From Synergistaceae bacterium (GTDB lineage Bacteria; Synergistota; Synergistia; Synergistales; Aminobacteriaceae): a stretch of DNA of 64,000 nucleotides. The position numbers and the translations under genes were made by a program. This document shows, piece by piece, positions 3,713 through 48,247 of this stretch. Positions within the stretch are counted from its first letter, which is position 1; each line of letters opens with the position of its first letter. Where the stretch lies: positions 62,001 through 126,000 of the forward strand of contig JAFSRQ010000146.1 in the NCBI GenBank assembly GCA_017446055.1, in the 5' to 3' direction. The notes beneath the pieces are model-generated. The model made no database searches. It had not been told where the DNA came from and saw only the letters and a list, made by a program, of their open reading frames with translations.

Positions 3713-4846
3713 CTATTGAAGCCTGAGTTTGTCCCGCTCAAATACTGAGGAGTAATGATACATACACATGTAGCTCAGGTAGAACAGGCCGTTATGCCCG
3801 ATTGTGTCCGCCATCGACATGAACAGCTGAGTGAAGAACACCATGTTGCACAGCCCACGCACGCGCCTGTCATCAATGCGGCTGATTCCCTTCACGAGAG
3901 TGATCCAGTATATGCAGCGTCCAAGCATCCCTAAAAGCCCTGTGCGGAAAAGGGAGTCGAGAATTTCGTTGTGGGCATGGTTGAAGCCATACAGTATTTC
4001 TCCGATCTTTTCGTCTGACTTTATGCCTATACCGAAAATCGGACTCTTGCTGAAAGTGTTAAGAGCCGCGTCCCATAACATTGTTCTCCCGGTGAAAGTT
4101 ACGCTCTTGTGGAGGGTGTTGACGATGAAGTCCTCGAACAAGTACTGAATGCGCATTACCGTGATGCTCAGGCTGACAATCTGGGGGCTGAGAAAGAATA
4201 CCCATGTGCTTATGCGGTTGAACCAGGCAAAGTTTGTGAATATCATAACCCCTGCGGCAACGGCTATCATTCCGAGAAAACCTCCGACTGCCCACGTGGC
4301 TATAGTACAGAAAAGAGAGGCGGCAAGCGAGGCATATACCATGAAGTCAAGCCTGCGCTTTACCGTGAGACTATACATAGCGGCCATGCATATCAGCGGG
4401 AGAGTATACAGCACAAATCTGTTATCCATTCCGAGAAAGAAATTCGTGGCGACACCGTACATCCCTTGAGGATAAGCAATCACTGTATATGTGTTTATCG
4501 CGACGAGAACGAACAGGAAATCCCTAGTCAGCAGGAGCATTTTTTCCCTCAGAACGGGCATAAAATACTCCGCAAGGAATGACCCCCCAAGCGCAGCCCC
4601 GGCATATTGACCCCATCTCACAATGTCAGAAAAACTATGAGGATTTATCAGTGTGGACATGAGCATAAATCCCTGGAAAACAATGGTACTCCATAACAGC
4701 TTTGAGAATTTTCTGCGCTCAAGGAGGAGAAGAGCCGCGCAAATCAGAACAGCCGCGAGTTTTCCTGCCCTGAAGAAGTTATCTATGCTGGGGAACTTCT
4801 TGAAGTACCACGATTCACAATAGGGGGAAAGCAGGAGTACATACAC
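3713..4846 (-). CDS. O-antigen ligase / Wzy-type polymerase family membrane protein, probably phase-variable
   Basis: Polytopic inner-membrane protein that ligates or polymerises undecaprenyl-linked glycans. It has about ten hydrophobic segments, and the signature of the Wzy_C/WaaL family lies in the last third: FTGRTMLWDAALNTFSKSP, FGIGIKSDE and HAHNEILDSLFRTG. The 377 residues begin at a GTG (4846) that has an AGGAAAGGA site upstream. A better start exists: ATG at 4926, 10 bases after the stop of the M20 peptidase gene and behind GTGAGGA. From that ATG the frame runs through a G11 tract (4882-4892) and ends at TAA 4863-4861; 12 or 9 Gs would fuse it in frame to this body. So expression is probably switched by tract length, with the GTG as a fallback. 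Ligase versus polymerase cannot be decided. Confidence 0.85.
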   Translation of the reverse strand: MYVLLLSPYCESWYFKKFPSIDNFFRAGKLAAVLICAALLLLERRKFSKLLWSTIVFQGFMLMSTLINPHSFSDIVRWGQYAGAALGGSFLAEYFMPVLREKMLLLTRDFLFVLVAINTYTVIAYPQGMYGVATNFFLGMDNRFVLYTLPLICMAAMYSLTVKRRLDFMVYASLAASLFCTIATWAVGGFLGMIAVAAGVMIFTNFAWFNRISTWVFFLSPQIVSLSITVMRIQYLFEDFIVNTLHKSVTFTGRTMLWDAALNTFSKSPIFGIGIKSDEKIGEILYGFNHAHNEILDSLFRTGLLGMLGRCIYWITLVKGISRIDDRRVRGLCNMVFFTQLFMSMADTIGHNGLFYLSYMCMYHYSSVFERDKLRLQ

Positions 4847-4881: not shown

Positions 4882-4892
4882 CCCCCCCCCCC
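4882..4892. repeat. Homopolymer C11/G11 tract at the 5' end of the O-antigen ligase gene
   Basis: Eleven consecutive C on the plus strand (G on the coding strand). It lies between an ATG with a good ribosome site (4926) and the ligase reading frame. At 11 the upstream frame terminates after 21 codons; at 12 or 9 it reads through into the ligase. Such tracts are classic slipped-strand phase-variation sites in bacteria. Confidence 0.85.
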
Positions 4893-42755: not shown

Positions 42756-44672
42756 ATGAAGAAGTTATTTGCGTTAATGTTAGCCGTTGCGATGCTCTCA
42801 GTTGCGGGTACAGCAATGGCGGTAACGGGAACGGCAAGCCCCAGCACCGTGAACATGACAGCAGGCGGTATCGCTACGTCAACGGTAACGGGTGTTGCGG
42901 CGAATGAGGGTACACTGAGCTATACGCTCTCATCAACAGCTCCTGCTTGGGCAACGCTGACGAACAATGTTGTAACGTTCAAGCCCGCGGCGACAGTAAC
43001 AGGGACTTCAAGCGTTGTTGTAACGGTTACGGAGACCTACACGACAGATGCGGGACACTCAACATCCACAGCTACAGTTGACGTTACGATCACTGTGAAC
43101 GTAGCATCCCCTCAGTCCGAACCCGAGCCAGATTCAAAACCGGCAGCCGAAGATGAGACCACAACGGTAGTCGAGAGGGTAAAGCCCGTTGTAAGAACTG
43201 TAACGCGAGTTGTTGTAGTCGTCATCGACGCCACGGCTCAAAGGTCGGCTTCAGTTCTCACCTTTGCCCAGACAGTAAGGACAGTTGCGGCTTCCATCGC
43301 AGACACAGGGCTTCTTACAAGGCTCGGACTCAGCCAGGCACTTGCTCAGGTGTGGGTGGCAAAGGCTGCGCAGGTAGCTGAGATGGCACAGAGGGCAATC
43401 AATTCCGCAGCAAAGAGGGCGGCTCTGTTCGGCGGCTTGGGTGCTGGTGCTGACACAACGCCTCAGGACAATAGCGAGCTGGAAGAAGTTGCTGGTTCAA
43501 CAGGTGATGATGCTGACGCAGGCACGAAGCTGGCCGCTGCTTCACAGAATCTCGGAACAGGCCGCAGGGCTTTGTCAGCAGGCGGAGCTATGAGACCCAA
43601 GAAGAGCGGTACATACTCATTCGCCAAGAACTTTGGCCCGGATCTCTACAAGCTCCCGATACAGGGCGACAGAGGCAGGAAGGGCGGCGTTGCTGGCGCG
43701 TTCTTCGCATCAGATGCCGACACGACCGGTGTTGCATTCCTTGACAGCGCGGGCAACGTGACAACAATCATCCCCGGCGATGAGAACTCACAGGACATAA
43801 TGCCCGGCTTCGTTACGATGCTGGTTGTTATGGAGGCCGGACAGGTTTACGAGCCCGTAGTTTTCACAACGGACAGTGCTCTCGAAGAGGCTGGAATTAC
43901 TACTGAATCAAAGGACGCTGAGGTCAATGTGGTTGACTACTCAGAGACAGAGACAGTAGTTATTGACGAGAACGGCAACGAGACAGTCCAGGAAGACGCT
44001 CCTGCAGCTGCAGTAACCAAGATGGCAGCAGATCTCGGCGCAACTCCTACGCGCGTTCCTACAACAGCTCTTACCAGCGCGGCAGCAATCAAGTCAGCAG
44101 ACGCGGCGGCAGACAAGGCATATGCGGCAAGCCATGACATGTTCATAGCGGCCACTTATCCCGCAGTCGGAGCACTTACGAACGGTGCATACTACGCTCC
44201 TGTAACGTTTGACTCACTCCCCTCAGGCCGGACGCTTGCCAGCGGTGCGGAATTCGAGTTCTATCCTGACGGTCTCGGAGATGGTGCAGAAGAGGCATAC
44301 GTGGCAGTGTTCGATATGTCAGGCGACAAGGTTACAACGCCCGCGAGCATACTCGGCAAAGAGGGCTATATCGCCTTCATAGTTGAGAGCAACCTGTTCA
44401 GGGCAGCCGCAAAAGATAACGAGATGGACAGACCCACAGTAACGCTTGACATGGCGGCACTGACACCGGCAAGCCCCGACACAAGACCCACGAGCCCTGA
44501 TACGAGGCCGACAAGCCCCGATACAAGACCCACGAGCCCTGATACGAGGCCGACAAGCCCCGACACAACGAACCCGATCGGTGTAGGCAGCTCAAGCGGC
44601 GGATGCTCGGCAGGAAGCGCGGTTCTCGCACTCGCTCTGCTTGGGACATTCATCGCATCACGCAAGAAGTAG
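42756..44672 (+). CDS. Synerg-CTERM-like secreted surface protein with Ig-like N-terminus and TSPDTRP repeats
   Basis: A 638-residue exported protein. Order: signal peptide (KKLFALMLAVAMLSVAGTAMA), a Thr/Val-rich Ig-like domain (about 24-115), an acidic linker with Pro and Glu, a helical Ala-rich region (155-235), a middle domain of unknown fold (290-560), five SPDTRPT-type repeats (about 572-606) and a C-terminal sorting-like tail: SSGGCSAGSAVLALALLG then FIASRKK. That Gly/Cys motif, hydrophobic helix and basic end match the Synerg-CTERM signal of Synergistota, processed by a rhombosortase-like system in related cases. It has its own strong promoter and terminator. Its function (structural surface protein or adhesin) is unknown. 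Confidence 0.85.
   Translation: MKKLFALMLAVAMLSVAGTAMAVTGTASPSTVNMTAGGIATSTVTGVAANEGTLSYTLSSTAPAWATLTNNVVTFKPAATVTGTSSVVVTVTETYTTDAGHSTSTATVDVTITVNVASPQSEPEPDSKPAAEDETTTVVERVKPVVRTVTRVVVVVIDATAQRSASVLTFAQTVRTVAASIADTGLLTRLGLSQALAQVWVAKAAQVAEMAQRAINSAAKRAALFGGLGAGADTTPQDNSELEEVAGSTGDDADAGTKLAAASQNLGTGRRALSAGGAMRPKKSGTYSFAKNFGPDLYKLPIQGDRGRKGGVAGAFFASDADTTGVAFLDSAGNVTTIIPGDENSQDIMPGFVTMLVVMEAGQVYEPVVFTTDSALEEAGITTESKDAEVNVVDYSETETVVIDENGNETVQEDAPAAAVTKMAADLGATPTRVPTTALTSAAAIKSADAAADKAYAASHDMFIAATYPAVGALTNGAYYAPVTFDSLPSGRTLASGAEFEFYPDGLGDGAEEAYVAVFDMSGDKVTTPASILGKEGYIAFIVESNLFRAAAKDNEMDRPTVTLDMAALTPASPDTRPTSPDTRPTSPDTRPTSPDTRPTSPDTTNPIGVGSSSGGCSAGSAVLALALLGTFIASRKK
44471..44566 (+). repeat. 42-bp tandem repeat encoding (SPDTRPT)n
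   Basis: Two full 42-bp copies (44471-44512 and 44513-44554) plus 12 bases of a third; each encodes two heptads SPDTRPT. Copies differ at one base. The unit is a multiple of three, so copy-number change would lengthen or shorten the stalk before the membrane tail without a frameshift. Confidence 0.9.
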
Positions 44673-47330: not shown

Positions 47331-47359
47331 AAAAAGCCTGCCCCGTCTTGTGAGGCAGG
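47331..47359 (-). terminator. Terminator between the two GT2 genes
   Basis: On the minus strand CCTGCC pairs with GGCAGG (loop about 11 nt) followed by CTTTTTC. It lies 35 bp after the stop of the frameshifted copy and upstream of the intact copy. Confidence 0.7.
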
Positions 47360-47393: not shown

Positions 47394-48247
47394 CTACTTC
47401 CGAAGGAACGTCTTGTAGAACCACTCCGTGAACGAAGCCGGCATTATCGACACAAACGCCTGGCCGAAGCCGCTCACTATGAAATCTGTGAAGGAGATGA
47501 ACCCTGTCCGAAGAAAGTATGCCTTCATCTTCAGGCTCGAAACAGTTAAACGAAGTCCTCTGCGCCGCCTGTAGTAGTCCTTGCTGACCCGCATATACGT
47601 GAGAACTTCCTGTACGTTGTATACCCCCCCCCCCCGTTACGCATATTCTGCAAGATACGAACAACTAGGTCATAGTCCTCGTACCTGTAGACATCCCGGT
47701 AATTCCCGGCCGCCATTACAGCAGACTTCTTCACCAGAAATGTTGACTGCCTGAAGGGGCATCTCCTCCGGGCAAACTTCACGACTTCCTCAGGTGTCTC
47801 CGGCATAATCACGTGTGAGATTACGTTCGTGATTTCGCCCTCGAACTCGTCAACGTTGCTTCCCACGCCGCTCAACTCCGGGTGCTTCTCGAATACGGCA
47901 AATTCCTTCTCCATTCTCTCCGGCACTGAATAGTCGTCAGAGTCCATGCGTGCGATGAACTCGTTACGGCAAAGCGGCAGAGCATCACGCAGAGTGCGAC
48001 CCTGCCCCCTGTTTTCCTTGTAGTGCTGAATCGTGAAAAGGTCTCCGTATTCCTCCCTGTAGCCGTCAAGAACCCTCTGCAGGTCTTCACCTATAGGGCC
48101 GTCAACAGCAACAAGGATTTCCTCAGGCGGTATAGTCTGGTTGATCATGCTGTCGATTGCTGCCTTGAAGTACTCGGGAGAGTCTTTGCGGTAAAGAAGG
48201 ATAAGGACGCTGTAATCATGTTTTCGGTCTTTGTCGGGCAATAACAC
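47394..48247 (-). pseudogene. GT2-family glycosyltransferase, frameshifted at a G12 tract; probably phase-variable (OFF)
   Basis: The first 205 residues (SVLILLYRKDSPEYFKAA, MINQTIPPEEILVAVDGPIG, ARMDSDDYSVPER, YRYEDYDLVVRILQN) are an intact GT-A domain matching the paralogue at 46445. After NMRN and a G12 run (47624-47635) the frame leaves the family and ends 28 residues later. In the +1 frame the paralogous C-terminus resumes exactly: VYNVQEVLTYMRVSKDYY ... SGFGQAFVSIMPAS ... WFYKTFLRK, stopping at 47394. With 10 or 13 Gs the protein would be whole, so this looks like an ON/OFF contingency gene caught OFF rather than a dead gene. Start is GTG 48247 or TTG 48241 (GGTGAG upstream). Confidence 0.88.
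47624..47635. repeat. Homopolymer C12/G12 tract inside a GT2 glycosyltransferase gene
   Basis: Twelve consecutive C on the plus strand (G on the coding strand), encoding a Gly run at the position where the intact paralogue has Lys-Gly-Gly-Gly-Val-Tyr-Asn. Twelve shifts the frame; ten or thirteen keep it. Confidence 0.93.

Follow-up and report, generated by a model that had tools for sequence, protein, structure and literature searches.

A putative poly-G contingency locus in a GT2 glycosyltransferase gene and signs of a multi-locus phasome in a genus of gut Synergistaceae

Slipped-strand phase variation at homopolymers is a classical mechanism of random gene switching. In the phasome of Campylobacter the poly-G tracts are dominant, 77% of the tracts lie within genes, the coding strand carries G in 95% and C in 5% of the cases, and the proportion of ON states in draft genomes is near that of neutral drift (PMC6321876). 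In Neisseria and Helicobacter the homopolymers lie in the frame of surface or modification genes and the ON or OFF state follows from tract length modulo 3; in Helicobacter canadensis tracts are also found far into the genes, where they alter the C-terminus (PMC5953494, PMC2823697). For the Synergistota our searches of the open-access literature returned no report of phase variation mediated by repeats, which agrees with the remark in an earlier sequence-only reading of the DNA studied here that such loci are not a described theme in this phylum; in one survey, one of two Synergistetes species was reported to have such an element of the invertible type. Both the phylum and a multi-locus repertoire in an apparent commensal appear to be undescribed in this respect.

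We analyzed a stretch of 64,000 nucleotides (the window) from the draft genome of a Synergistaceae bacterium. The window contains a GT2 glycosyltransferase gene whose reading frame breaks at a run of exactly 12 G's, situated at ~70% of the gene (Table 1). The frame that begins at the GTG start reads through the tract and ends in a truncated product, while the codons 3' of the tract are open up to the TAA in a different frame. The N-terminal 204 residues share 59% identity with the neighbouring paralogue (E 3e-91) and match PF00535 over the cut-off (E 3.5e-15), and the C-terminal part is 67% identical to the C-terminus of the same paralogue over 78 residues, including the glycines encoded by the tract (E 3e-29). 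The DNA at the tract reads AAC, G12, TATACAAC, and the two halves are joined at any length n = 1 mod 3: 10 G's give N-GGG-VYNVQ and 13 G's add one Gly. The sequence-only reading had described the break at 12 consecutive G's, the recovery of the family C-terminus in another frame and the Asn-Gly-Gly-Gly-Val-Tyr-Asn that would result from ten G's; on re-reading the strand and recalculating the frames these statements proved to be right, the paralogue having K-GGG-VYNVQ at this point. Apart from the frameshift at the tract the gene carries no lesion and no internal stops, and the dN/dS of its C-terminal part was about 0.11-0.22 relative to three homologues, values that were obtained at high dS.

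Table 1. Features of the window related to the two long G tracts (coordinates are those of the window)
Feature	Coordinates	Strand	Remarks
Putative phase-variable GT2 glycosyltransferase gene, full in-frame extent	47394..48247	-	GTG 48247-48245, TAA 47396-47394
G12 tract (C12 on +)	47624..47635	-	codons 205-208; direct reading
OFF-state open frame, 233 aa	47546..48247	-	204 family residues + Gly4 (tract) + 25 out-of-frame residues
C-terminal part, other frame	47394..47624	-	VYNVQEVLTYMRVSK...FYKTFLRK, 76 residues, starts VYNVQEV
Intact paralogue, 282 aa	46445..47293	-	same Gly3 turn from interrupted tract GGGGGGCGGGG
Terminator-like hairpin between the two GT genes	47337..47359	-	consensus match only; count near shuffles
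Second long G tract, G11 (C11 on +)	4882..4892	-	36 nt before first in-frame start GTG 4846
Wzy_C-domain membrane protein (O-antigen ligase/polymerase type)	3713..4846	-	PF04932 E 2.5e-13

The family assignment of the window gene and its paralogue as GT2 glycosyltransferases of the GT-A fold follows from the domain match and from the DxD motif region (ARMDSDDYS), in which the residues D100, D102 and D103 of the paralogue are invariant in all eight homologues. The paralogue was modelled with AlphaFold2 (mean pLDDT 91.5); the model has the GT-A fold, and SpsA (1qg8) was the Foldseek match with the lowest E-value (3e-14). The solved structures nearest to it, SpsA, a Leptospira glycosyltransferase (6p61) and the fucosyltransferase WrtF (9omh), share this fold with the model, at a sequence identity of only 12-21%. 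In the paralogue model, helix 188-203 and strand 207-218 are linked by a turn that consists of glycines 204-206. Since the tract thus corresponds to a turn between a helix and a strand, one more Gly should, as judged from the model, be harmless, and a frameshift at this point would remove strand 207-218 together with every C-terminal helix.

Relatives of the window gene, at 48-73% identity, were recovered from four other species of the genus, and the site of the tract varies among them. It is G12 and OFF here; in G061 it is a G9, also out of frame, where 8 or 11 G's would join the halves; and it is interrupted and ON in both the paralogue (AAG GGG GGC GGG GTC TAT AAC) and the intact homologue of G049, which encodes the three glycines as GGC GGA GGA. 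The three-Gly insert is missing from the GT2 homologues of Clostridia, Elusimicrobia and Flavobacteria. Because these outgroup homologues have no Gly insert, and given the interrupted copies and the G9 of G061, it seems that the tract was inserted within this group, was kept in some copies and became fixed in others by synonymous interruptions, the order of these events being our reconstruction. In a further species, G043, two contigs with GT2 homologues break at long runs: one (C20) ends 9 bases past a G19 (L132) and the other (C52) starts within a run of 17 C's (L135-L137), and the flanks at these runs do not continue the GT2 gene. This looks like assembly breakage, perhaps together with a two-colour poly-G artefact, and as possible sequencing artefacts the two runs were set aside as evidence on length.

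The tract was then placed against the G/C runs of the whole genome, using a chance model in which the decay of G/C run lengths in the window itself (ratio 0.227 per base) was extrapolated. The model predicts 0.011 runs of at least 11 per window and about 0.4 per genome of 2.39 Mb, and 0.09 runs of at least 12 per genome. The genome has 19 and 15 such runs, respectively, the former being about 47-fold over the genome-wide expectation, and two of the 19 lie within the window (Table 1). The numbers of tracts of length 8 to 14 were 5, 3, 4, 4, 6, 7 and 2, with a peak at 12-13; this distribution is not a decaying tail. Exact tract lengths from draft metagenome assemblies may deviate by one or two bases. 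A/T runs of at least 8 were found only four times in the 145 kb that were fetched around the tracts, the longest being 9. Loss of mismatch repair was considered as the cause of the tracts and rejected: the genes mutS (862 aa) and mutL (586 aa) are both open and intact, which points to local hypermutation and not to a mutator strain.

We then asked which genes carry the tracts, taking a tract as in-gene when it falls within, or at the beginning of, an open frame with at least 60 downstream codons, a mechanical test that also sets the ON and OFF calls. By this test about 16-17 of the 23 tracts of at least 10 are in-gene; 14 of the 17 are out of frame and three in frame, of which one (L108) is doubtful, and the G's are on the coding strand in 16. 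No clear target gene was found for the tracts L094, L095:3566, L101 and L111. The Pfam domains of the tract genes include: GT2, Wzy_C, short-chain dehydrogenase (SDR), the N-terminus of TPP enzymes (with a second relative), CotH with a lamin-tail domain, LRR, aldo/keto reductase, phosphoribosyltransferase and Methylase_S, and in at least two lipoproteins the tract comes just past a lipobox-like signal. On inspection, these are mostly glycan, lipoprotein and secreted or surface functions, plus one restriction specificity subunit. With at least 10 putative phase-variable genes and a surface bias by inspection, the genome has a putative multi-locus phasome.

In the window the second long tract lies upstream of the gene for a Wzy_C-domain protein, and the frame 5' of this gene at the tract differs from that of the gene; the tract probably governs the gene via its N-terminus or leader. 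The Methylase_S gene has a C11 on its coding strand (L106:3016-3026), between a two-unit specificity subunit and a third unit, and adjoins an N6-methylase gene (L106:4086-5975). Slippage in this tract could add a recognition unit, so that the locus is a possible candidate for phase-variable restriction-modification specificity and thus for a phasevarion. On contig C107 three long tracts occur within 3 kb (L103:2997, L103:4837 and L103:5882), all out of frame, in genes for a protein that is QueC-like by eye (no Pfam or NCBIfam match), a short-chain dehydrogenase and a TPP enzyme; the trio forms a switch cluster in what looks like one biosynthetic locus. A repeat of another type is present in the window gene for a secreted protein at 42756-44672, which has a five-copy 21-bp tandem repeat (RPTSPDT, at 44465-44568) followed by a weak Synerg-CTERM sorting signal (NCBIfam TIGR04564, below cut-off); changes in the copy number of this repeat would keep the frame. 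A scan for promoters and terminators gave counts at chance level.

The tracts were also compared between species of the genus. The TPP-dependent enzyme, which has a distant similarity to MenD, carries a tract at the same or nearly the same position in seven species, with lengths G10, 10, 10, 11, 11, 12 and 12; three of the seven copies are OFF and four are ON. It is OFF in both the window's genome, G000 (G11), and the sister species G004 (G10), and for this pair (dS 0.25) the dN/dS was 0.115 before and 0.097 after the tract, similar to the 0.13-0.16 of a pair that is in frame. A dN/dS of about 0.1 on both sides of OFF tracts means that this is not a dead gene. Between G000 and G004 eight orthologous tracts of at least 9 could be aligned at both flanks, with lengths of 14/10, 9/12, 10/12, 13/14, 12/11, 11/10, 13/12 and 13/13, so that seven of the eight are unequal; the fifth tract also has a paralogous copy, of length 13. 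In one of these orthologous pairs, a lipoprotein, G14 is OFF and G10 is ON. The flanks of the 13/13 pair are nearly identical, which implies that little time has elapsed. One TPP-enzyme locus with an equal G13 (L113 and L178) is 99.7-100% identical between two species whose other tract loci are mostly at 75-95%; recent transfer and bin contamination are both possible explanations. According to the mechanical test 3 of 17 tracts are in frame in G000 and 7 of 21 in G004, in total 10 of 38 (26%), which is near the one third that is expected when length is random with respect to frame.

We consider the GT2 gene of the window to be, with a probability of roughly 0.87, a translational contingency locus in which poly-G slippage acts as the switch. 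Such an arrangement had been proposed in the sequence-only reading and now has the backing of the wider comparison: the repeat is beyond chance and lies in the frame, its length would switch that frame, tract excess extends over the genome and the genus, the site varies among relatives with tracts at the same position in other species, and the sequence behind it appears to be under purifying selection. On this comparative evidence a contingency locus is a better explanation than a pseudogene or an assembly error. A single frameshift could have killed a redundant glycosyltransferase copy, and the out-of-frame state of the window copy directly beside an intact paralogue is what one would then see. 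We hold this for very improbable, as an ordinary pseudogene should not show what was found: there is no second lesion, the 76 C-terminal codons are open and appear conserved, the tract of an independent species (G061) at this site is likewise out of frame, the pattern recurs in about 14 genes of the genome, and the TPP-enzyme copies are OFF in two sister species and still selected. A homopolymer error in sequencing or assembly, with a true gene that is constitutively in frame at 10 or 13 G's, finds some ground in the draft state of the genome (149 contigs), in the proneness of homopolymers to error and in the partly artefactual look of the G043 contigs. This explanation deserves hardly any credence either, for all long tracts that were fetched from this genome are internal to their contigs, tracts of similar length occupy orthologous positions in independently assembled species, and a miscount would leave the tract in place, a true length of 10 or 13 simply being the ON state.

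Recoding is known to arise by slippage on long homopolymers (cf. a survey of reading frames, PMC3711429). Slippage in transcription or programmed ribosomal frameshifting might yield some full-length enzyme at any DNA length and make the tract a leaky expression device, which would account for the many orthologous tracts that are out of frame and yet under purifying selection. A recoding site should, however, keep one length and frame, whereas the tract lengths of the orthologues differ and both ON and OFF states occur; we regard recoding as an unlikely substitute for a switch in DNA length, with which it may nonetheless act together.

In a contingency locus of this kind, slipped-strand mispairing at the poly-G during replication would add or remove G's, and the cells would switch at random between ON (10 or 13 G's, intact glycosyltransferase) and OFF (11, 12 or 14 G's, truncated protein, presumably inactive). 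From the known behaviour of such tracts we expect the switching to be reversible and a glycan to be affected by it. The window gene would be one of about twenty likely switches in the genome, and their likely effect would be random variation of the cell surface, possibly directed against phages, protozoa, the host or competitors, although any such ecological role is speculation.

The closest parallel is the set of poly-G/C loci in Campylobacter (PMC6321876), which is alike in the dominance of poly-G, in the share of tracts within genes (77%, here 17 of 23), in the G's on the coding strand (95%, here 16 of 17), in an ON fraction near neutral drift and in one genus having many loci. It differs in that the present case concerns another phylum and uncultured gut Synergistaceae, in the presence of mutS and mutL here, and in the mode of tract length, which is 9-10 in Campylobacter and 12-13 here. 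The Neisseria and Helicobacter systems resemble the present locus in the in-frame homopolymer and the modulo-3 rule; here the tract is placed late, at a turn that precedes a strand in the model, and the locus is known from sequence.

Tract numbers were compared across the phylum with one genome per species, near-identical records being left out, which gave 43 species for the genus. The number of runs of at least 11 per genome reaches 51 in the genus; the other genera of the phylum mostly have 0-3, with exceptions. Five genomes of other Synergistota genera (G165, G158, G151, G131 and G088) have about 9-33 such G/C runs, which could be additional phasomes or artefacts of sequencing. Two complete, nearly identical genomes from another Synergistales family (G037 and G057) were considered as carriers of a phasome and rejected, as their runs are mostly of 9, sit in GC-rich and often housekeeping-type sequence and look like background; within this pair one run is G15 in one genome and G9 in the other (L202:1510 and L221:1522), with flanks that are 99.8-100% identical. 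The same-genus records are named as goat-rumen and red-deer Synergistaceae or Synergistales metagenome genomes.

Taken over the genus, we think it somewhat more probable than not that this whole genus of apparently non-pathogenic ruminant-gut Synergistaceae has a poly-G phasome, with 10-50 loci in many of its genomes. It would be of the same sort as that of Campylobacter, would probably have evolved independently, and would include a restriction-modification specificity subunit whose poly-C could switch the methylome. If this is true, multi-locus phase variation would be a trait of gut life rather than of pathogens, and a genus that has tens of G tracts of variable length in its genes for glycans and the cell surface would provide a direct test case. 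Random switching of many genes has mainly been described in pathogens, Campylobacter and Neisseria among them, and this phylum appears to have it as well; what is taken for a 'pseudogene' in these genomes may often be an OFF allele, and with the rumen read sets that already exist, surface switching could be measured in a natural community.
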